NCBI RefSeq assembly: GCF_016925535.1
Contig: NZ_CP070496.1
Coordinates: 2,542,001 to 2,606,000 of the forward strand
Origin: Natronoglycomyces albus
GTDB taxonomy: Bacteria > Actinomycetota > Actinomycetes > Mycobacteriales > Micromonosporaceae
Direction of reading: 5' to 3'
Length of the DNA: 64,000 bases
Part shown: positions 6,304 through 57,448 of the stretch, one piece after another
Layout: the number at the start of each line of letters is the position of its first letter
Position numbering within the stretch: the stretch's first letter is position 1
Translations under genes and position numbers: made by a program
The notes under the pieces: model-generated
What the model was told of the DNA's origin: nothing
The model's input: only the letters and a program-made list of their open reading frames with translations
Databases searched by the model: none

Positions 6304-6403
6304 GAGGCTGGCGCAAAAGTGCGAGTTCAAGGCCGCACGAGTCAACGTTTACGCAGGTAAACGAGCCGATGTGAACGCCGAACGTGACTTTTGCATAAGC
6401 CTC
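6304..6403. repeat. 100-bp palindromic interspersed repeat, copy A
   Basis: One of three exactly 100-bp, ungapped relatives in the window (others at 39337 and 43757). By my count it is 84% identical to copy C and 77% to copy B. The ends form an inverted repeat (GAGGCT...GCAAAAGT against ACTTTTGCATAAGCCTC). The centre is the palindrome GTTTAC-gcag-GTAAAC at 6347-6362. It lies between the arginase-like gene start and the aldo/keto reductase remnant. Confidence 0.85.
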
Positions 6404-6474: not shown

Positions 6475-6977
6475 TCATTCGTCGCTCGTCAGCGAATTGA
6501 CATCGGACTCGTCCAACCGCAATGTCCCCGCCGTGATGTTCTCCTCCAGATGTGTGGTGTTGCCAGTACCGGGAATGGCCAGAATGTGCGGGCCGCGCAC
6601 CAAGGTCCAGGCAAGCCTGATCTGCGCTGGTATCACTGCGTATTTTTGGGCCATCGTCACAAGTTTCTGTTCGTACCGCCCACTGTTACCGCCCTCCGTG
6701 CCCTCGCGCGCGATCGCGAAGTAGGGAACGAAGGCGATCCCTTGTCTACCGCATTCGTCGACGAAGGCATGCATACGTTGGGTGGCCCCGATTCCGTAGG
6801 CGTTCTGGACGCACACAACCGGGGCCACGCTCTGCGCCTTGGGCCAAGTGCTGGGCTGCGCAGCAGTGTGAGCATCTGGGCGCGATCGCTGGGCATTCCA
6901 TCACGCTTGGTGGTCAGACGCGTTGACCCGTATCCCATGCGGTGGACCGTCCGGTTGTCCAGTTTCCAAGTCCCCGA
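6475..6977 (-). pseudogene. aldo/keto reductase remnant, internal deletion plus frameshift
   Basis: Two pieces of one aldo/keto reductase in different frames. The N-terminal piece, about 6977-6855, reads RTVHRMGYGSTRL, the family's first strand and cofactor loop. The C-terminal piece, 6850-6475, reads APVVCVQNAYG and then HILAIPGTGNTTHLEEN, the NADP-binding end. Roughly 120 residues between them, including the catalytic Asp/Tyr/Lys/His region, are missing and the frame changes near 6850. No start with a ribosome binding site precedes the first piece. It is non-functional as an oxidoreductase; the 118-codon open frame that remains is unlikely to be a separate gene. Confidence 0.75.
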
Positions 6978-38841: not shown

Positions 38842-39336
38842 CCGGGCCATGAGCTTTCATCCCTTTCATATGGTCCCACTGCACCATCGCCAAGCGCCGC
38901 CGATTTGGCCACATTGGAGTGGGAGAACGAACCGAGTTGGCTGTTACTCGGTATTGGGAAAGCCCGCTGTCTCTTTGGAAGTTTCCTCGACAAAGAGACA
39001 GCGGGCCGCATCATGTCACGGGCAGTAGGCCACCCTCCCGCAAGGCTTGCTCTGACCAGCGGCCCATTCTCAACTATCTCCTGCGATTGGTGATGATCCC
39101 TCCCAGGTGGCTTGCGGCCCGACCGCCGAGCGCAGCGACACAGACAACTCCGGCACGGTCGTCGCATGGCCTCATCCCAGGGCCCACGCCGAAGGGAAAG
39201 ACCCCGAGCGAGGCCCGTCCCCCCGCACCACCGAAGGTGAAAATTACTCACCTGGGGCCCCTTGTTTTATTATTTCAAGAATCCCCGCCCGGAGCCAAAA
39301 CGATGTTCCTCACCTGTGGATAACCTTGACAACCGC
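38842..39336. other. intergenic between convergent genes, with small hairpin repeat
   Basis: 495 bases. GAAGGTGA-aaatt-acTCACCT followed by GGGGCCCCTTG (39231-39262) matches the hairpin at 21342. A second TTATCCACA, in the same 14-base context as at 3565, lies at 39310-39323 on the minus strand. CCCGCTGTCTCTTTG / CAAAGAGACAGCGGG (38964-39003) is a further perfect inverted repeat, likely the DUF4097 terminator. Confidence 0.5.
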
Positions 39337-39436
39337 GAGGCTTAGGCAAAAATGCGAATTCAAGACCGCAGAAGGCGAAGTTTACTCAGGTAAACGCCCC
39401 GAGGAGAACAACCGAAGTGCCTTTTGCATAGGCCTC
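39337..39436. repeat. 100-bp palindromic interspersed repeat, copy B
   Basis: Exactly 100 bp, aligned without gaps to copies A and C (77% and 83% identical by my count). Ends GAGGCTTAGGCAAAA and CCTTTTGCATAGGCCTC are inverted; the centre GTTTAC-tcag-GTAAAC is palindromic. It lies between the convergent DUF4097 and DUF2752 genes. ACCG occurs close to both ends (ACCGC before, ACCGT after), a possible short target duplication. Confidence 0.85.
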
Positions 39437-39462
39437 ACCGTCATCAATGTTGGTCGAACGGT

Positions 39463-40347
39463 TCAGACGTAGAGATGGATGAAGGGCTCCCACGGCAGAT
39501 TGCGGGCGATCCAATAGACAGCCCATACGCCGAGGAACCAGAACGTGATGCGTGGGGTCACCACGAAGACCGGCCAGCGCCATCCAAGGCGCGGGAAGAG
39601 GCGTGGCACCGACCATTGTGCGAACATCCACGTCAAAAACGGGGCCGCGAACAACGCCATCGCATGATTGCGGGCGGCTTCGGGCAGGTTGAAAGTCAAC
39701 GTGTAGTAAAACGCCCTTGTGCCGCCGCACCCAGGGCAGTCAAAGCCGGTCATGAGTTTGAACGCACACGTGGTGGGCCCGACTTCGTTAGTCGGGTTGT
39801 AGTACAGGACCGCTGCGGCCGCGGTGGCGAACCCCAGCAGCACCGCCACCGGACCCACCCAGGGAAGGGCGAAGAATCGTTTGATGGGCCCGGGTTCTTT
39901 CACCGGCGGGGCCAGCATCTGTTCGGGGTGGGCGGGCGGCCTGACCTCACCCACCTGGTTGGTTTGTAGGGTCTGGACGCTCGAATCCGCCAATGGGGCC
40001 TCTTTGGCGTGAGTCGAACCGCTCGTGGGCTCCGAGGGTGAGGTCGGCGAAGAGGACTCGACCGCGTCGGCGCCGCTGCCAGGTGGGTTGATCTGGGTGG
40101 AAATGGCCTCGCCGTCCCCCGGCTGCGGGGGCGACTCTTCCCGGGCCGCGTCCTGTGGTGAATCGAATTCTTCCGGCTCGTCGGTCTTCGCCCCCGGTCG
40201 GTCAGCGGTGGTGTCGGACCGTTCCTCCTCGAGCGTCTCCTCCTGGGAAACATGCGCGGCGGGGATGACTTCCTGGTCGCGCTGCGATTCCAGTTGAGCG
40301 TTTCGTTCCTGCTCAGGCACAGAATCCTCACTCGCCCGCTCGACCAT
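39463..40347 (-). CDS. DUF2752 membrane protein with disordered acidic N-terminus
   Basis: 294 residues. The first 150 are acidic, Ser/Pro/Glu-rich and probably disordered. The C-terminal part carries the DUF2752 signature FDCPGCGGTRAFYYTL between hydrophobic helices (about four in total). The family is a small inner-membrane protein of unknown function with conserved cysteines. ATG with GGAGG upstream. It is divergent from the GNAT gene across a 50-bp region containing a perfect inverted repeat. Confidence 0.85.
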   Translation of the reverse strand: MVERASEDSVPEQERNAQLESQRDQEVIPAAHVSQEETLEEERSDTTADRPGAKTDEPEEFDSPQDAAREESPPQPGDGEAISTQINPPGSGADAVESSSPTSPSEPTSGSTHAKEAPLADSSVQTLQTNQVGEVRPPAHPEQMLAPPVKEPGPIKRFFALPWVGPVAVLLGFATAAAAVLYYNPTNEVGPTTCAFKLMTGFDCPGCGGTRAFYYTLTFNLPEAARNHAMALFAAPFLTWMFAQWSVPRLFPRLGWRWPVFVVTPRITFWFLGVWAVYWIARNLPWEPFIHLYV

Positions 40348-40364
40348 TCTGGAACCTCCCTCGT

Positions 40365-40397
40365 CCCGCCTAGCCTATCCCCCTTAGGCTAGGCGGG
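40365..40397. promoter_or_regulatory. symmetric divergent promoter: inverted repeat with two -10 boxes
   Basis: CCCGCCTAGCCT-n9-AGGCTAGGCGGG. Each arm contains TAGGCT on the outward-reading strand. For the plus strand, TAGGCT (40385-40390) is 7 nt before the ATG at 40398, giving a leaderless GNAT mRNA. For the minus strand the same hexamer (40371-40376) would start the DUF2752 mRNA with a short leader containing GGAGG. Confidence 0.6.
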
Positions 40398-41012
40398 ATG
40401 CAACCCTCCTTTGTGCGTGCAGCCCGCACGACTGACGCCGCCACTATCGCGCAACTGCACTGGGACGTGCTCCACGGCCCATACCGCCGCCTGATCCCCT
40501 CTGAGGTCATGGAGAACCTCGATCACGAGTGGATGGTCAACCGTTGGCGTGAGGCCATCGAGTCCCCGCCCGATCACTATTCTCGGGTCTATGTCGCCGT
40601 TGACAAGACCTCCTCGCCGGCCGCGATCGCGCGCACCGGCCAGAGCGACCTGCAACAAGACGGCGCGAGCCTGGGCGAAACGGTCGTTGGTTTCGCCGCC
40701 GTCACCCTCCCCGAGCCGGACTCCGGGGTCCCAAACTTCCAACAATCGGCCTTTATCGAGCCGATCATCGTGGCCGAGGGGCACCGCCGGCAGGGGCACG
40801 GCTCCCGGCTCTTGGCCGCGGCGGTGGACCACTGGAGGGAAGGCAAGATTCGCTACGCCTACGCTCTTGTCCTGGCTGGAGACTCCGACACTGAGAATTT
40901 TCTGGCCGGTTCGGGCTGGGCGCCGGAGGGTACCGAGTACCGACACACCTCTCCTGCGGCCAATGTCGTGCAGCGTCGCTGGCATACCGACATCTCTATG
41001 ACAGAAGAATGA
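40398..41012 (+). CDS. GNAT family N-acetyltransferase
   Basis: 204 residues. It opens with VRAARTTDAATIAQLHWDVL, a typical GNAT start. The acetyl-CoA pyrophosphate loop is EGHRRQGHGSRLLAAAV (Q/R-x-x-G-x-G/A) at about 132-148. The acceptor is unknown. An unusually polar insertion (DKTSSPAAIARTGQSDLQQDG) sits in the middle. Leaderless start as judged from the symmetric promoter. Confidence 0.85.
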   Translation: MQPSFVRAARTTDAATIAQLHWDVLHGPYRRLIPSEVMENLDHEWMVNRWREAIESPPDHYSRVYVAVDKTSSPAAIARTGQSDLQQDGASLGETVVGFAAVTLPEPDSGVPNFQQSAFIEPIIVAEGHRRQGHGSRLLAAAVDHWREGKIRYAYALVLAGDSDTENFLAGSGWAPEGTEYRHTSPAANVVQRRWHTDISMTEE

Positions 41013-41087
41013 ATCCCAGCAGTGGATCGTGGCCGCCCATGAGAGGCCGCGACGGCGAAACCACCTCCGGGCGCCCGATCACGGCCT

Positions 41088-41093
41088 TACGAT
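41088..41093 (+). promoter_or_regulatory. -10 box for a leaderless LppM-like transcript
   Basis: TACGAT, a 6-nt gap (AAGGCG), then the ATG at 41100; no Shine-Dalgarno sequence. Confidence 0.6.
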
Positions 41094-41099
41094 AAGGCG

Positions 41100-41777
41100 A
41101 TGAGATATCGGCCGCTTTTGCTCATTGTCGGCACGCTTGTCACCTTGCTGGCCAGCACCGGCTGTATGCGGCTGGAACTGGACTTGGTCATCAACGACGA
41201 CGACACCGTCGACGGTCACATTGTCGCGGCGTGGAGCGATGATTTCCTGGCCGAGGCGGCCTCGGCCGACATCGATTTCGACCCCGATCAAGCCGATGCC
41301 CTCATTGACGCGCTCTTGGGCGACCTTCCCGGTATCGAGGATCGTCGCGATTATCGTCAGGACGGCTTCAGCGGCGAAACCGCTTCGTTCGCCCGTCAGC
41401 CGCTGTCTGATTTCGCCTCGCTCGAAGAGGGGCAGGACTCGCTACAGATCGTGCGGGACGGTTCCCGCTACCAGCTCACTGCCTACTGGAACTTGCAAGG
41501 ATACGATCCGCTCGAGTTCGATCTCAGCGAACAGGTGCCCTCACCTGAGATCACTTTGTCGGTGACGTTCCCCGGCCGAGTCACCGCCCACAACGGGGAT
41601 CTCGATGGTCGTACCGTCACCTGGAACTTGGCCTTGGGCGAGGAACACCATCTCACCGCCGAGGCGGCTGGGCGCAATGCCGGTATGTTGTTGGCCACCG
41701 TCGGCGGCGGCACGGTGGCGATCCTGGCGCTCATGGGTTTGTGGCAGTACCGGATGTTGCGCCGCTATTCTCTCTAG
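41100..41777 (+). CDS. LppM-like lipoprotein with C-terminal membrane helix
   Basis: 225 residues. Signal peptide with lipobox LASTGC (Cys22). The mature domain begins MRLELDLVINDDDTVDGHIV and continues as a beta-rich fold (LTAYWNLQGYDPLEF; SVTFPGRVTAHNG) like mycobacterial LppM. A single helix (GMLLATVGGGTVAILALMGL) and a short Arg-rich tail close the protein, so it is held at both ends. The role in envelope biology is inferred from the family only. Confidence 0.82.
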   Translation: MRYRPLLLIVGTLVTLLASTGCMRLELDLVINDDDTVDGHIVAAWSDDFLAEAASADIDFDPDQADALIDALLGDLPGIEDRRDYRQDGFSGETASFARQPLSDFASLEEGQDSLQIVRDGSRYQLTAYWNLQGYDPLEFDLSEQVPSPEITLSVTFPGRVTAHNGDLDGRTVTWNLALGEEHHLTAEAAGRNAGMLLATVGGGTVAILALMGLWQYRMLRRYSL

Positions 41778-41997
41778 CCGGCACGTTCGCCACCTGCGAC
41801 TCTTCTCCCTCGTGGCTAGAGGCGTCTCTCAGCAGACTTTCAGCCTCTTCGAAGCTTGCTGACAGGTTGCGGTTAGCGTTCGACTTCACAGCGTGACCTC
41901 GGGCATATTCGCAGGTTAACGGGCTGCTTTGTCGGCCTGTACGCCGTATGCTGAAGGGTCTTGCCAGCGTCGCATCCCTGTGGAGAAGAGGAAACAA

Positions 41998-42960
41998 TTG
42001 GACCCCAAGAAAGGCGAGGACACCCCCACCGGCGAGCACAAGAACTCCGGCCTTGACCTTAGTGTCGTCCAGGTGCTCGCCGCCGCCGGAGCCGCCACAC
42101 TCGGGGCCGTCTTCGCAACCGTCATTGGCGTGTACGGCACCATCATCGGTACCGCCGTGTTGAGCTTGATCACGTCGGTGGGCAGTGTACTGCTCGTGCA
42201 TTTCACGAACAAGACCACTGAAAAGATCAAGGTGCCGCTCAAAGGAGCGGTGGGCGGCAGGCCGAATTCTCAACAATCCGACTATGACGGCGACGCCACC
42301 GCGTTGCTGCGGCCGGACTGGGACACCGACGCGGGGGCATACCGCTCGACCCATATCTTCGCCGTCGGAGACCCTGACGCCACTGTCGAATTCGGCACCG
42401 TCGACGAGAACGGCCGCGCAACCGGCGTCGCGACGGTGACCATGGCGGACCCGACGCTGGCAGAGGAGCTGAATTTCCAGGGCCAGAACGACCTGACCGT
42501 GGTTGAGGGGGGCCACCCAGGGCCGACAGGTCCGGAGGCGACAGACGAAGACGAGAAACCCTCCCGTAAGAAACTGTGGGTCTCCATCGCCGTCTCGACC
42601 GTCCTCGTCTTTCTCATCACCGTCGTGGCCCTGACGGTCATGGCGCTGGCTCAAGACAAGAACCCGAATTATTACTTCAGTCCTTCCCCGGGACCGTCCC
42701 CAGGCGTCATGACGCCCAACGTCGAAGAGTCGGTCGACCAATGGGACCCCGCTCCCGGCGGCGAGGACACAAACCAGCCAGAGAACGACCAGGGCACTGC
42801 CGAGCCAACGGAGGACTCCACCCCGGAGACAACACCTCCGGGCGACGATTCCACCGACGAGGGCGACGCGGGCGACGATGAGGTGGACGAGGACGAAGAC
42901 GACGATGAGGACCACGAGGCGGACGCGGACGATCCAGAGCCGACCCCCACCCGCAACTAG
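41998..42960 (+). CDS. membrane protein with acidic extracellular tail, unknown function
   Basis: 320 residues from a TTG start preceded by GAAGAGGAAA; the frame is open to 41929. Two adjacent helices near residues 22-60 (VVQVLAAAGAATLGAVFATV; IIGTAVLSLITSVGSVLLV) are followed by a soluble loop, a third helix (WVSIAVSTVLVFLITVVALTV) and a strongly acidic Pro/Thr/Asp/Glu tail of about 100 residues. The first-half pattern is common in actinobacterial hypothetical proteins. The tail composition suggests an exposed, disordered stalk. Confidence 0.7.
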   Translation: MDPKKGEDTPTGEHKNSGLDLSVVQVLAAAGAATLGAVFATVIGVYGTIIGTAVLSLITSVGSVLLVHFTNKTTEKIKVPLKGAVGGRPNSQQSDYDGDATALLRPDWDTDAGAYRSTHIFAVGDPDATVEFGTVDENGRATGVATVTMADPTLAEELNFQGQNDLTVVEGGHPGPTGPEATDEDEKPSRKKLWVSIAVSTVLVFLITVVALTVMALAQDKNPNYYFSPSPGPSPGVMTPNVEESVDQWDPAPGGEDTNQPENDQGTAEPTEDSTPETTPPGDDSTDEGDAGDDEVDEDEDDDEDHEADADDPEPTPTRN

Positions 42961-43201
42961 TGGTCACGGCTGACCAGAGGCGGTGCCACACCGGTACTGG
43001 CCCTAGCCCGGTCGCGATGTGTCACCGACGCTCATAGGTGACATCGGGCCTGTCGCGATCGCACCCCCACCCATGGACGTCATAAAGCCGACACACCGCG
43101 CAACTACGAAATAACCGACAAAGAGTGCTCCCATAGGTATCGTGAGCGAGTCTGCCCGTCAGGGCAGGCATCACACGAAAACGAAACTCTTTGGGGGAAC
43201 A

Positions 43202-43588
43202 ATGTTCCGTAAGACGCTCAAGACCATCACCGCCGTCGCCTTCGCTGGCGCGCTCGCCGTCGGCTCCGCGACCTCGGCTTCTGCCGACGTGGTCGAGGAG
43301 CACGGCAGCTACGGCTCCGGCGACATCAACGTGCTGTCGAACCTGTGCATCGGAAACTGGAACGGCGACGTCATCAGCATCCTGAAGATCGCCAACTCGG
43401 AGTACCGCGAACTGTGCACGACCTACGGAAGCGGCTCCGGCGAGGGTGACATCAATGTTCTGTCGAACATCTGCGCCCTGAACTGGGACTGGAACAACGC
43501 CGCCAACCTGGGTCTGATCGCCAACAGCAAGGAATACCGCGCTTGCATCGAGTACAACGAGGCGCACGGTGGCGGCGACAAGTGGTAA
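43202..43588 (+). CDS. small secreted protein with two Cys-pair repeats (chaplin-like pattern)
   Basis: 128 residues. Signal peptide (MFRKTLKTITAVAFAGALAV, cleaved after ASA). The mature part is two tandem repeats: GDINVLSNLCIGNWNGD, with IANSEYRELC, and GDINVLSNICALNWDWN, with IANSKEYRAC, linked by Gly/Ser. Each repeat has two Cys about 24 residues apart around a hydrophobic stretch, as chaplin (DUF320) repeats do, but the sequences are not a match I can call. ATG with GGGGGAAC. Possibly surface-active. It is followed by a 78-bp cruciform and repeat copy C. Confidence 0.7.
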   Translation: MFRKTLKTITAVAFAGALAVGSATSASADVVEEHGSYGSGDINVLSNLCIGNWNGDVISILKIANSEYRELCTTYGSGSGEGDINVLSNICALNWDWNNAANLGLIANSKEYRACIEYNEAHGGGDKW

Positions 43589-43671
43589 TGCGTCATACAC
43601 GCGTTGACAACTGAATACAGAACTTCGTATCAGAAGTCCTGAGAGTTTCTTTCGTTTTGTGAACGGTTTAC

Positions 43672-43749
43672 GAATGTGCCTCCGAAAGGCGTAGCGACCA
43701 CCACTGGACCGACGGGTCAATTGGTGACAAGCCTTTCGGAGGCACATTC
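43672..43749. terminator. 19-bp inverted repeat with nested stems (cruciform terminator)
   Basis: Perfect 19-base arms beginning GAATGTGCCTCCG with a 40-base interior that itself pairs (CACCA/TGGTG, GACC/GGTC). It lies 83 nt after the small secreted protein gene. Confidence 0.7.
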
Positions 43750-43756
43750 TTTGTAT

Positions 43757-43856
43757 GCGGCTTATGCAAAAATGCACATTCAAGGCCGCAGGAGGCAAAG
43801 TTTACGCAGGTAAACGAGCCGAAGAGAACGCTGAAAGTGCCTTTTGCATAAGCCTC
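43757..43856. repeat. 100-bp palindromic interspersed repeat, copy C
   Basis: The best preserved copy. Ends CGGCTTATGCAAAA and CTTTTGCATAAGCCTC are inverted, with the central palindrome GTTTAC-gcag-GTAAAC at 43800-43815. TAT flanks both ends. It sits between convergent genes and stops 12 nt before the dapB stop codon. Confidence 0.88.
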
Positions 43857-43868
43857 TATCTGTTAGCG

Positions 43869-44609
43869 CTAGTCGAGAAAAGCGTCGATGCCTACGGTCA
43901 GCCCCCGCACGGCGGGCACTTTACGGATCGACAGCACAACCCCTGGCATAAAGGACATCCGGTCCACCGAATTATGGCTGATGGTGAAGTTCTCCCCTGC
44001 CGAGCCAAACCACACTTGTTGGCTGGCAATGTAGCCCTCCGCGCGGATCGCATGTACCGCAATCCCATCCACGTTCGCTCCCCTGGCACCTTCAAGCTGC
44101 TGCTGGGTCGCGTCCGGGCCCGGACCCAACCCGGCTTCCTCGCGCGACTGAGCCATCAAGCGCGCAGTGTGCACGGCCGTTCCCGAGGGTGCGTCCACCT
44201 TACGCGGGTGGTGAGCCTCAATAACTTCCGCTGAGTCGAAGAACTTCGCGGCCTTGGCAGCGAACTGCATCATCAGCACCGCCCCAATTCCGAAGTTGGG
44301 GGCGATCACCGAACCGAGTTCGGGCTTATCGCGCAGCCACTGTTCGACTTGCCGCAAGCGCGCCGCATCGAAGCCCGACGTGCCGACGACGGAGTGAATG
44401 TCGTGGTCGATGAGCCACTTGAGGTTGTCCATCACAACGTCGGGACGGGTAAAATCGACCGCCACCTCAACGCCTGCCTCAACCAGCGAGGCCAGATCGT
44501 CCCCATGGTCGACCGTCTGGGCCACGGTCATCCCCTCCGCGGCCTCCACCGCCTGACACACGGCCGTCCCCATCCGACCGGCCGCCCCGATCACACCTAC
44601 CTTGATCAA
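43869..44609 (-). CDS. dapB: 4-hydroxy-tetrahydrodipicolinate reductase
   Basis: 246 residues. Reduces the DapA product with NAD(P)H on the way to diaminopimelate. The Rossmann loop GAAGRMG is at 8-14. The catalytic motif EAHHPRKVDAPSGTA supplies His133, His134 and Lys137. The start is TTG with AAGGAGAAACCA upstream. It is downstream of pnp in the same direction but has its own spacing and a terminator between them. Confidence 0.94.
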   Translation of the reverse strand: MIKVGVIGAAGRMGTAVCQAVEAAEGMTVAQTVDHGDDLASLVEAGVEVAVDFTRPDVVMDNLKWLIDHDIHSVVGTSGFDAARLRQVEQWLRDKPELGSVIAPNFGIGAVLMMQFAAKAAKFFDSAEVIEAHHPRKVDAPSGTAVHTARLMAQSREEAGLGPGPDATQQQLEGARGANVDGIAVHAIRAEGYIASQQVWFGSAGENFTISHNSVDRMSFMPGVVLSIRKVPAVRGLTVGIDAFLD

Positions 44610-47168: not shown

Positions 47169-47562
47169 ATGAGTCGTTTGCTCCATTTCACATGTGTTGG
47201 AGCGCCCGGCCGGTTTGTGGTTCTGGCCGGTCATCGATCGAAGCACTCGGTGTGGCGTCTGTTGATTCGACCGGGTTGGTCGGATCGTCCGACCTGATGG
47301 GGTCGTGGTGACCGTGGTCGGTGACGTTGTCCGGGTGCCACTACCGAGGACCGGCAGTCGGTGGCTGGGCGCTGTCTAACCTGTCGGCTTGCCAGCGGTG
47401 TCCGCGCGTTCGCAACGTGGCGTTTGCCGCCATGCGCGCGTCCGGGCGGAGTGTGTTCCCCCGACCCGGTCGGTGCGGCATCGCTGCCGCGAGTCGGTAG
47501 CGCGGGCGAGCCGGTTCTAACGCTACCCTCATCGGCGTGGCGCAAGGGTACGAAATAAGCCA

Positions 47563-55783: not shown

Positions 55784-57448
55784 ATGCCGAACAACTCTGC
55801 GATCTCTTCGATCTGTCCCCACGCCTCCGGTGCCGGAGCCGACATCATGGAAAAAGGTGGTAACGCCGTCGACGCGGCCATAGCCGCCGGAGCTGTCCTC
55901 GCCGTCACCTCGCAAAACTTCTGCGGCCTCGGCGGCGACCTATTCGCGCTGGTCTGGGACGACTCCTCTCCCGCCCCAGCCGCGCTCAACGCCTCAGGAC
56001 GCTCCGGCAGCGGCGCGAGCGCCCAAACCCTGCGAGCCGACGGACTGGACCGCATTCCGTTCCACCACAGCCCACACGCGGTTCCCGTCCCCGGATGCGT
56101 CGACGGATGGGCCGCCATGCACCAGCGATACGGATCGCTGCCGTGGGCCGATCTCTTCGCCGATGCGATCAACCTGGCCGAAAACGGCTGGCCCTCGTCG
56201 AAATCCCTCGAGCAAGGCGCGACAATGCTCGAAGGCGTCGACGGGGCCGAGGAAATCCGCCAAGCCCGCGCCGGAGAGAAGCTACGGCGCCCCCGCACCG
56301 CACAAGCACTGCGCGACATCGCCAGCAAAGGCCGCGAAGGCTTCTACGAAGGCCCATTCGGCGCAGGGCTCATAGAACTAGGTGCCGGACTCGGCGCGAA
56401 TGGAACCGACCTCTACACCGCCGAGGACCTACGAACCCAGCAAGCCAATTGGGAAAAGGCCCTCGCCGCCACCACCGCCGGACACACCCTATGGACCTCC
56501 CGGCCCAATTCACAGGGCTACCTGCTGAGCCTGGCAATGCGTATCCTCGACCACCTGGAATTCTCCCGCGAAGACGAGGGGCTGTGGGCGCACTACATCA
56601 TCGAGGCCTGCCGCCTAGCTGGCTACGACCGACCCGAATTCCTGCACGAACACGCCGACGCTGAAAAGATCCTGCTCGAAGCAGCCAGTCGTGCCGAGCG
56701 CATCCACCCCGATACCCGCGCCGATGTCAGCGGGCCTCAAGCTGACGGCGGCACCACCTATATGGCAGTCTCGGACTCCCAAGGAATGGCCGTCTCCTAC
56801 ATCCAGTCCAACGCCGCCGGTTTCGGTTCCCTGCTATTCGAGCCTCGCACCGGCATCGCCTTGCAAAACCGAGGCATCGGCTTCAACCTCACACCCGGCC
56901 ACCCCGCCGAATACGGGCCACGCAAACGGCCCCCACACACACTCCTTCCCGCTCTCGTCTCCCGCGAAGACGGCTCGTTGCGCCTGGTCACAGGCACCAT
57001 GGGCGGAGACGCACAACCGCAGATCGTCACCCAAATTCTCGACCGGATTCTGCGAGGCGGCCAGAGCGTCACCCAGGCCATCGGCGCACCCCGGATCCGA
57101 CTAGACGCGGGCCAAACCGGGTTCGACACCTGGTCAAACTCCCACGGCGTCAACCTAGAACAAGACGTACCAACCCCCTGGGAGACCGGCCTACGGCAAC
57201 GAGGACACGAGGTGAACCGCCTGGATGTGATCTTCGGACACGCCCACGCGATCGAAATCACCCCCTCCGGTCAGGTGAGCGCGGCGGCCGACCCGCGCGC
57301 CGAGACAGGCACCGCGCTGGTGTTCTTATACTGTGATCTCCACCGTCACCGGCCCATTGCGCAACTGGCGACGGCCCCGACCGAGCACGGCGCTGGCAGT
57401 CGCCAGCGCCGAGACGGTCCTTCGTCCACTTCGCCGATCTGTAGGTAG
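55784..57448 (+). CDS. gamma-glutamyltransferase family protein with run-on C-terminus
   Basis: 554 residues. Transfers or hydrolyses gamma-glutamyl groups. Family landmarks: GGNAVDAAIAAGAVLAV, NFCGLGGDLFALVW, the nucleophile Thr at the autocleavage site in DGGTTYMAVSD, and GTMGGDAQPQIVTQILDRI. No signal peptide. After GTALV, where relatives end, the frame continues about 45 residues (HRHRPIAQLATAPTEHG...) with no homology, ending 9 bp before yibE/F. Start leaderless by -10 spacing. Confidence 0.88.
   Translation: MPNNSAISSICPHASGAGADIMEKGGNAVDAAIAAGAVLAVTSQNFCGLGGDLFALVWDDSSPAPAALNASGRSGSGASAQTLRADGLDRIPFHHSPHAVPVPGCVDGWAAMHQRYGSLPWADLFADAINLAENGWPSSKSLEQGATMLEGVDGAEEIRQARAGEKLRRPRTAQALRDIASKGREGFYEGPFGAGLIELGAGLGANGTDLYTAEDLRTQQANWEKALAATTAGHTLWTSRPNSQGYLLSLAMRILDHLEFSREDEGLWAHYIIEACRLAGYDRPEFLHEHADAEKILLEAASRAERIHPDTRADVSGPQADGGTTYMAVSDSQGMAVSYIQSNAAGFGSLLFEPRTGIALQNRGIGFNLTPGHPAEYGPRKRPPHTLLPALVSREDGSLRLVTGTMGGDAQPQIVTQILDRILRGGQSVTQAIGAPRIRLDAGQTGFDTWSNSHGVNLEQDVPTPWETGLRQRGHEVNRLDVIFGHAHAIEITPSGQVSAAADPRAETGTALVFLYCDLHRHRPIAQLATAPTEHGAGSRQRRDGPSSTSPICR

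Follow-up and report, generated by a model that had tools for sequence, protein, structure and literature searches.

The window analysed here, a stretch of 64,000 nucleotides (C1:2542001-2606000) from the 4.01-Mb genome of Natronoglycomyces albus (G000; three contigs), carries three copies of a 100-bp imperfect palindrome (Table 1). The copies align without gaps and agree pairwise at 77, 84 and 83 of 100 positions, as the preliminary description of this DNA had it (77-84%). According to gene calls from our own codon-usage script, rather than from an annotated record, copy 1 is flanked by two genes on the minus strand, and copies 2 and 3 do lie between convergent genes, as described, with a DUF2752 gene and a DapB gene as their respective right-hand neighbours. 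The inverted ends reported earlier stand in so far as the 15-bp ends pair in the genome consensus; the left end then quoted, GAGGCTTATGCAAAA, occurs exactly in none of the window copies. The centre, reported as invariant over positions 50-60, is so from position 51 to 60, position 50 reading G, T and G. Further clear copies are absent from the window, where the next-best matches reach E 0.34 with R1, a covariance model built from 31 N. albus copies, and 0.031 with R3 (55875-55944).

Table 1. Coordinates of the three element copies and of the parts of copy 3
Feature	Window position (genome position)	Strand	Remarks
Element copy 1	6304-6403 (C1:2548304-2548403)	+	R1 110 bits
Element copy 2	39337-39436 (C1:2581337-2581436)	+	R1 101.8 bits; convergent flanking genes
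Element copy 3	43757-43856 (C1:2585757-2585856)	+	R1 123.7 bits; convergent flanking genes
TAT target duplication of copy 3	43754-43756 and 43857-43859		3 bp
Left terminal inverted repeat, copy 3	43757-43771	+	genome consensus GAGGCTTATGCAAAA, common to the insertion sequence in L035/L036
Right terminal inverted repeat, copy 3	43842-43856	+	TTTTGCATAAGCCTC
5' half of conserved core, copy 3	43782-43794	+	AAGGCCGCAGGAG
Apical stem-loop, copy 3	43800-43815	+	GTTTAC-GCAG-GTAAAC; letters vary in other genomes, pairing kept
3' half of conserved core, copy 3	43821-43831	+	GAAGAGAACGC here, consensus GACGAGAACGC

The surroundings hold three further features. An inverted repeat, GAATGTGCCTCCGAAAGG .. 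CCTTTCGGAGGCACATTC, occupies 43672-43749 just upstream of copy 3, an Actino-pnp RNA (RF01688) scores 53.3 bits at 47226-47355 on the minus strand, and a 117-aa open reading frame at 6475-6828 (minus strand) matches only positions 156-287 of the 291 positions of the aldo/keto reductase profile and is possibly a gene fragment or a frameshifted gene.

On the scale of the genome, the initial count of three copies proves to be a large underestimate. R1 finds at least 135 places at E<=1, of which 111 score 40 bits or higher and 94 reach at least 60 bits; 150 of 2312 candidates were scored for this count, and 135 may be a lower bound. The number of copies lies well above the 20 that had been proposed as the mark of a mobile or structured element. 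The scores grade from near-identical to strongly decayed copies, which indicates a long history of spreading. Specifically, the element combines a length of 100 bp, no coding capacity, high copy number and paired 15-bp terminal repeats with the traces of insertion. Identical 3-bp flanks occur in 41 of 131 copies against about 2 expected, four of the 135 (C1:3219398, 2152410, 230202 and 1733513) having been left out; they are found in 17 of the 31 best-preserved copies and in 1 of the 38 most decayed. Control comparisons in which the two element ends were put in unequal registers gave 0-6 copies with identical flanks. A joint one-base shift of both ends yields counts as high as 41 and 33, which is accounted for by the G and C at the element's ends and their likeness to its target, C-NNN-G. 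In the target, C stands at -4 in 58/93 and G at +4 in 56/93. By the same resemblance the match extends to 5 bp in 17 of the 41 duplications, where the next base on both sides also agrees and a 5-bp reading is possible; 3 bp is the duplication length common to all 41.

Empty sites, which had also been named as a check, exist inside the genome. The copy at C1:2178064 lies within another repeat family and, relative to 13 aligned empty copies of that repeat (distinct matches, without duplicates at one locus and without L030, a 74% match), adds the element and three bases. The extra bases leave TGG beside TAG, an imperfect duplication that would fit three duplicated bases of which one changed afterwards. 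Of the 124 placeable copies, 119 are intergenic, and 7 more have no neighbour in the stretch that was fetched.

The ends of the element also point to a partner. With up to three mismatches, the 16-bp end has 206 matches in the genome against 29 for a reversed control, and among the matches listed there are two places with the ends far apart, at 896 bp (L035) and 544 bp (L036). These ends agree with the element consensus at 15/15 letters on one side and 14/15 on the other, and the open frames between them match HTH_Tnp_4 (E 2.4e-8) and DDE_Tnp_4 (E 4.3e-19). Both copies of this insertion sequence are broken, one by internal stops and the other by loss of its first part, and neither shows a clean 3-bp duplication. 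A composite protein query found only these two at E<=0.001 in the whole genome, and since no intact transposase for the element ends came to light in that search, we infer the driver from the ends. They match those of a broken DDE_Tnp_4 insertion sequence, which identifies the element as a miniature inverted-repeat transposable element (MITE) and a decayed IS5-like element as the one that likely moved it. The two differ in that the MITE contains no part of a transposase gene and has the conserved core as its interior. Taken together, a copy number above 100, terminal inverted repeats, target duplications of 3 bp, an empty site within the genome and an insertion sequence with nearly the same ends support the MITE-like nature suggested at the outset.

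The genome harbours a second MITE family, about 160 bp long, whose ends read GAGCTCCTATCAGG.. or GAGCTCCTATCAGGTTTG... Its middle gives a weak R3 match, with a best E of 2.9e-4 over 12 kb and values between 0.02 and 0.13 for other copies. One copy sits at L125:1346-1511 (C1:555234 on), inside the apical stem-loop of a copy of the 100-bp element and with an apparent TTA duplication; others were seen in L007, L014, L036, L055, L070, L102, L112, L121, L024, L087 and L050.

The preliminary description had further offered a dispersed bidirectional terminator, a role that the N. albus copies do not bear out. In co-directional settings, 36 copies have the core in sense and 32 in antisense, and T-rich tails follow 4 of 131 copies on one strand and 6 on the other, with 2 and 1 as the corresponding counts when a control position 35 nt farther away is taken. 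A hairpin with a T run in sense to the upstream gene, as in an intrinsic terminator, is thus not the pattern of the copies in this genome. Convergent sites outnumber divergent ones (34 versus 17), a preference that also fits promoter avoidance. A consensus terminator scan of window positions 39000-44500 gave 7 sites against 5.0 expected, among them a weak one within copy 2 and another immediately upstream of copy 3.

Core orientation follows the direction of replication. With dnaA at C1:1930, 103 of 135 copies agree with one polarity (odds ratio 10.6, p 7e-10): to the right of dnaA, up to 1.9 Mb, the core is on the minus strand in 57/76, and on the other arm it is on the plus strand in 46/59. 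The 1.9-Mb switch is taken from the data; the contig midpoint in its place gives 102/135, and a free fit of both switch points gives 108/135. On both arms, this orientation places the core sequence on the strand running opposite to the fork, and the lagging-strand template carries the complement of the core. The polarity is present in every gene context, whether both flanking genes are leading (22/31), both lagging (27/37), convergent (29/35) or divergent (14/18), so that transcription is not its explanation. Sorted from the youngest to the oldest copies it reads 27/32, 22/30, 24/32, 13/17 and 17/24, a trend that leans towards polarity being set at insertion, without significance (youngest versus the rest, p 0.25). 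The polarity is broken by 32 of 135 copies, and near the origin 7 of the 8 copies at C1:3.85-3.91 Mb (3849000-3914000) have the wrong sign, a cluster that an old inversion close to the origin would give. The second MITE shows the polarity in 9/15 copies, in a sample biased to places near the element (versus 103/135, p 0.21). GC skew was discarded as a proxy for replication direction in fragmented genomes, being too weak in N. albus itself (53% and 37% positive on the two arms). Neither this polarity nor the phylum-wide conservation of the core had been part of the preliminary description.

The element folds more stably than its composition would give. The RNA fold of copy 3 reaches -39.9 kcal/mol against -24.45 +/- 3.03 in 200 shuffles (z -5.1), and its DNA fold has z -4.2. 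The core, AAGGCCGCAGGAG / GACGAGAACGC, is asymmetric, lies between covarying helices and is found across Actinomycetota with different arms. A fold set by hand comprises an outer helix, an internal loop with one core strand on each side, a short helix and an apical helix. It was evaluated on 22 chosen ungapped sequences, the same ones from which it had been set, and this circularity together with kinship among the rows inflates the following values: 86.8% of cells are paired against 65.7% in shuffles and the covariation score is 0.54 against 0.16, both reached by 0/500 shuffles, and sliding the partner by one column leaves a score of 0.18 or less. Two other measures are less clear-cut, with two-sided changes in 13 of 20 pairs (11.1 expected; 30/500 shuffles reach this) and 32 further pair types (27.7; 17/500). 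Two-sided change affects 4/6 apical and 8/11 outer pairs, and the loop strands are fixed. Covariation of the arms could alternatively arise when template switching perfects imperfect palindromes; the fixed loop strands would be explained by neither that process nor the inflation of the tests. Nor does a plain MITE explain the fixed loop. The earlier characterisation as a structured repeat, and the compensatory changes suggested as its check, thus find support across genomes; on the N. albus copies alone, RNAalifold returns an alternative fold with little covariation.

Wobble pairs offer a hint as to which strand folds, since a strand kept for its fold should tolerate G.T wobbles of its own. 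Outside the model positions, the core strand has 40 G.T against 21 A.C cells (32/37 copies examined, p 0.02), inside them there are 27 against 17 distinct cases in genomes found by pattern (p 0.17), and 65 N. albus copies have 138 against 136. Weakly, these numbers speak for folding of the core strand outside N. albus and for neutral decay within it. Two other ideas about the fold were set aside. Outer arms as pre-existing host palindromes were rejected after a scan for perfect 11-bp arms in 88.6 kb of a MAG resembling the related genome G046, where arms of the AGAG..CTCT type occur only around cores; integron attC and group II intron readings were dropped for want of an end motif.

Beyond N. 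albus, the core appears with other arms. Among 60 relatives, none of which belongs to the genus of N. albus, R1 finds 14 copies in G046 and one in G039; those of G046 have the same core and very different arms, which within each copy are largely complementary. A pattern specific to N. albus retrieves nothing from the genome contig collection. The exact core pattern, AAGGCCGCAGGAG-N18-34-GACGAGAACGC, retrieves 31 loci there, 30 in MAGs labelled Actinomycetota and one labelled Fibrobacteres; the sources are Frankiaceae and Frankiales MAGs, a Nanopelagicales MAG, RRmetagenome_bin2, an Actinomycetota MAG and the Fibrobacteres-labelled MAG. Because their elements are identical, G046 appears to be the MAG RRmetagenome_bin2, and A5 carries some loci twice, the two being apparently one genome. 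The record title of this genome says Acidimicrobiales and its placement is in the order of N. albus, so that one label may be off. The core pattern has 0 loci in viral contigs, and two plasmid queries gave no match; a single 29-base match inside a Pseudomonas phage gene was dismissed as chance.

A search with R2 over 396 genomes of the phylum gives 23 genomes at E<=0.001, N. albus included; in five of the other 22 (G422, G395, G142, G384 and G135; E 8.8e-5 to 7.6e-4) core and arms are unconvincing by eye and the matches may be chance. In G421 (best E 9.4e-11) and G403 (best E 1.4e-9) the model is matched by elements with diverged core letters. In 20 chosen genomes, R3 counts range from 1 to 64, led by G046 (64), G421 (23), G456 (19), G258 and G345 (15 each), G223 (14), G077 (13) and G453 (12). 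Within the single genome G345 the arms are of three main types, GTGTCGCGTGT.., GGCCATGTCTCC.. and GGCCGTGTTGCG.., the inner parts of which look related. Since arms differ between and within genomes around one core, the core travels with several sets of ends. In several genomes, core units stand in tandem about 80-101 bp apart (L182:884-1044, L175:5632-5789, L192:6863-7022 and L194:1501-1679), and in the Fibrobacteres-labelled MAG four tandem 111-bp core units run in frame inside a 1723-aa open reading frame (L172:272-684), which we take to be a UvrA-like gene.

The polarity recurs in other genomes. In G345, of the same order and with a recognisable core (dnaA at 1207), 13/15 copies have the same sign, one tandem pair included; with that pair counted once the figure is 12/14 (p 0.013), with 4/4 in settings of lagging-strand genes. 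All eight copies of G403 (dnaA at 2590) fit, as do 4/4 matches, one tandem pair among them, on the dnaA contig of G223, the only contig of that genome on which matches are placeable. In G421, a single switch placed between 0.875 and 1.297 Mb accommodates 23/23 copies, and one at the antipode 20/23; its origin had been guessed at about 2.6 Mb from the match list, a guess recorded only after dnaA had been located at 2606721. The core letters of G421 and G403 have diverged and 14 of the 23 G421 copies are preceded by a separate hairpin and lie 51-69 bp past a stop codon, so the polarity there is not independent of genes. G421 loci such as L246, L235, L227 and L248 are composite: the stop codon is followed by a hairpin of varying sequence, about 28 bp long and of the GTTCC..GGAAC type, and then by the divergent core element, which is flanked by CGACGCTGCGG and CCTCGCTGAC and often has a third small hairpin behind it. 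Across 53 matches in genomes other than N. albus (tandem neighbours counted apart), co-directional settings are antisense in 27 cases and sense in 4, in a mixed set for which origins are not known and gene and fork effects are inseparable. Moreover, 20 of the 53 matches lie within 15 nt of a stop codon; some of the adjoining gene ends presumably belong to rpsI and rpmG. Such placement behind stop codons in a fixed sense, in other lineages, is not explained by transposition at forks alone.

The available data are compatible with a model, to which we assign a probability of roughly 0.8, in which a 100-bp MITE has been spread by an IS5-like DDE transposase, belongs to a core family of phylum-wide range and has its orientation set by the replication fork. 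In this model, a transposase with HTH_Tnp_4 and DDE_Tnp_4 domains, probably that of the decayed insertion sequence, would read the ends GAGGCTTATGCAAAA common to it and the MITE. The MITE inserts between genes, preferably at C-NNN-G, and duplicates the middle 3 bp, as the duplications, the target and the empty site show; its orientation would be fixed at insertion through transposition at the fork. By conservation and covariation it forms part of a wider family of hairpin elements in Actinomycetota in which one folded core is kept and the arms turn over. Spread driven by a DDE transposase at or near replication forks is the best-supported mechanism. A bolder extension, which we hold to be doubtful, would make the core a structural module, as folded DNA or RNA, common to miniature transposons that differ in their ends and probably also in their transposases; it would tie insertion or survival to the moving fork and would have spread through the phylum as a replication-coupling cargo independent of any one transposase.

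Could the polarity have come about after insertion? Copies inserted at random might have been lost from the wrong strand, for example because the hairpin hinders lagging-strand synthesis or because a copy the right way round is useful to the chromosome. Selection of this kind, possible if rather unlikely in our estimate, gains from the two oldest and most decayed classes, which keep the polarity at 13/17 and 17/24, from the same sign in another genus with different arms (G345) and from the same sign in the divergent class of G421 and G403. Over time, however, selection should raise the polarity of old copies, and it is the youngest that have the highest (27/32), a difference short of significance (p 0.25). 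A structured RNA gene or 3'-UTR hairpin, acting in termination or mRNA stability and mobile by coincidence, would have its core read in RNA. This is unlikely, even though the helices covary and copies outside N. albus are mostly antisense to co-directional neighbours (27 versus 4) with 20/53 close to the stop codon on that side. In N. albus sense is not preferred (36 versus 32), T-rich tails are rare and wobbles do not differ (138 versus 136); elsewhere the G.T wobbles are commoner on the core strand, opposite to the mRNA strand (40 versus 21; 27 versus 17), and no Rfam 15 family matches over the element, at gathering scores in the window or at E<=10 in five loci.

Fork-set insertion by a DDE transposase, as preferred here, also has to be set against more distant readings. 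A REP/REPIN-type element, moved by a Y1 tyrosine transposase on the single-stranded lagging-strand template in the manner of IS200/IS605, is very improbable: 3-bp target duplications and ends common to a DDE-type insertion sequence do not fit Y1 transposition, and a search for Y1 transposase (PF01797) had no match in any of 14 copy-bearing genomes (several of them incomplete assemblies) and matches in 5 of 14 control genomes, which makes a REP/RAYT system unlikely. What speaks for it is that replication polarity marks IS200/IS605 (review PMC5371812) and that GACG in the core is CGTC on the other strand, beside the apical hairpin, as in CGTC-tagged REPs (PMC3733652). In N. albus, the Y1 reading is largely refuted. 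The chance that the core is kept as a peptide (KAAG..DENA) in a protein-coding repeat is close to nil. It draws on the four in-frame 111-bp units in the UvrA-like frame, and against it stand the intergenic position of 119/124 N. albus copies, which already refutes it in this genome, an in-frame stop seen by eye in the loop of the Frankiaceae versions and variable parts that covary as helices.

These findings bear on what a miniature element can carry. To our knowledge, MITEs normally keep little beyond the ends that the transposase reads; here the interior is a conserved, folding part that occurs with different ends, as in the three arm types of G345 and, by a weaker match, in the second MITE of N. 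albus. Additionally, the copies mark the direction of replication on both chromosome arms independently of genes, so that in copy-rich genomes their polarity reads out replichores and old inversions. The element thereby offers a testable case of a miniature transposon that uses the replication fork via its own structure, with a motif that can be searched for and deleted.

Among bacterial MITEs, the ERIC/RU, Correia and RUP elements share with it a hairpin of about 100 bp, terminal inverted repeats, a short target duplication and ends in common with insertion sequences, as well as an intergenic position, many copies and decay among them. They duplicate TA, whereas the present element duplicates 3 bp at C-NNN-G and differs further in its asymmetric core, conserved across orders with differing arms, and in its strong replication polarity. 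RU sequences have themselves been described as MITE-like (PMC2759123). A literature search over the titles and abstract openings of open-licence papers returned no actinobacterial MITE with such a core and none with replication polarity, a result that does not prove that none has been described.

Among published elements, the CGTC-tagged REPs provide the closest analogy, both by their form and by the missing transposase. They are described as 20-40 bp long, with stems of 8-9 bp that begin with two A/T positions, and most have a CCA tail (PMC3733652). As described there, they are likewise palindromic and intergenic, have CGTC at the hairpin foot and no dedicated transposase, and some families sit inside larger palindromes; the main text of that paper does not contain the word 'Actinobacteria'. 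The present element has CGTC at one hairpin foot, GACG being (nearly) invariant in A4 columns 54-57. In contrast, measured against the families described in PMC3733652, it lacks their size, stem and CCA tail: its apical part is a 3-bp plus a 6-bp helix that starts with G-C (in 22/22 rows), and its length is 100 bp here and more elsewhere. As for orientation, the review PMC5371812 describes a fork-set direction for Tn7 and IS200/IS605 and, citing Gomez et al. 2014, similar biases in several insertion sequence families with transposases that bind the sliding clamp. All of these have in common with the N. albus element a single direction relative to the fork; unlike them, it has no genes, had no Y1 transposase in the 14 copy-bearing genomes searched, and keeps the same sign among lineages whose arms differ.
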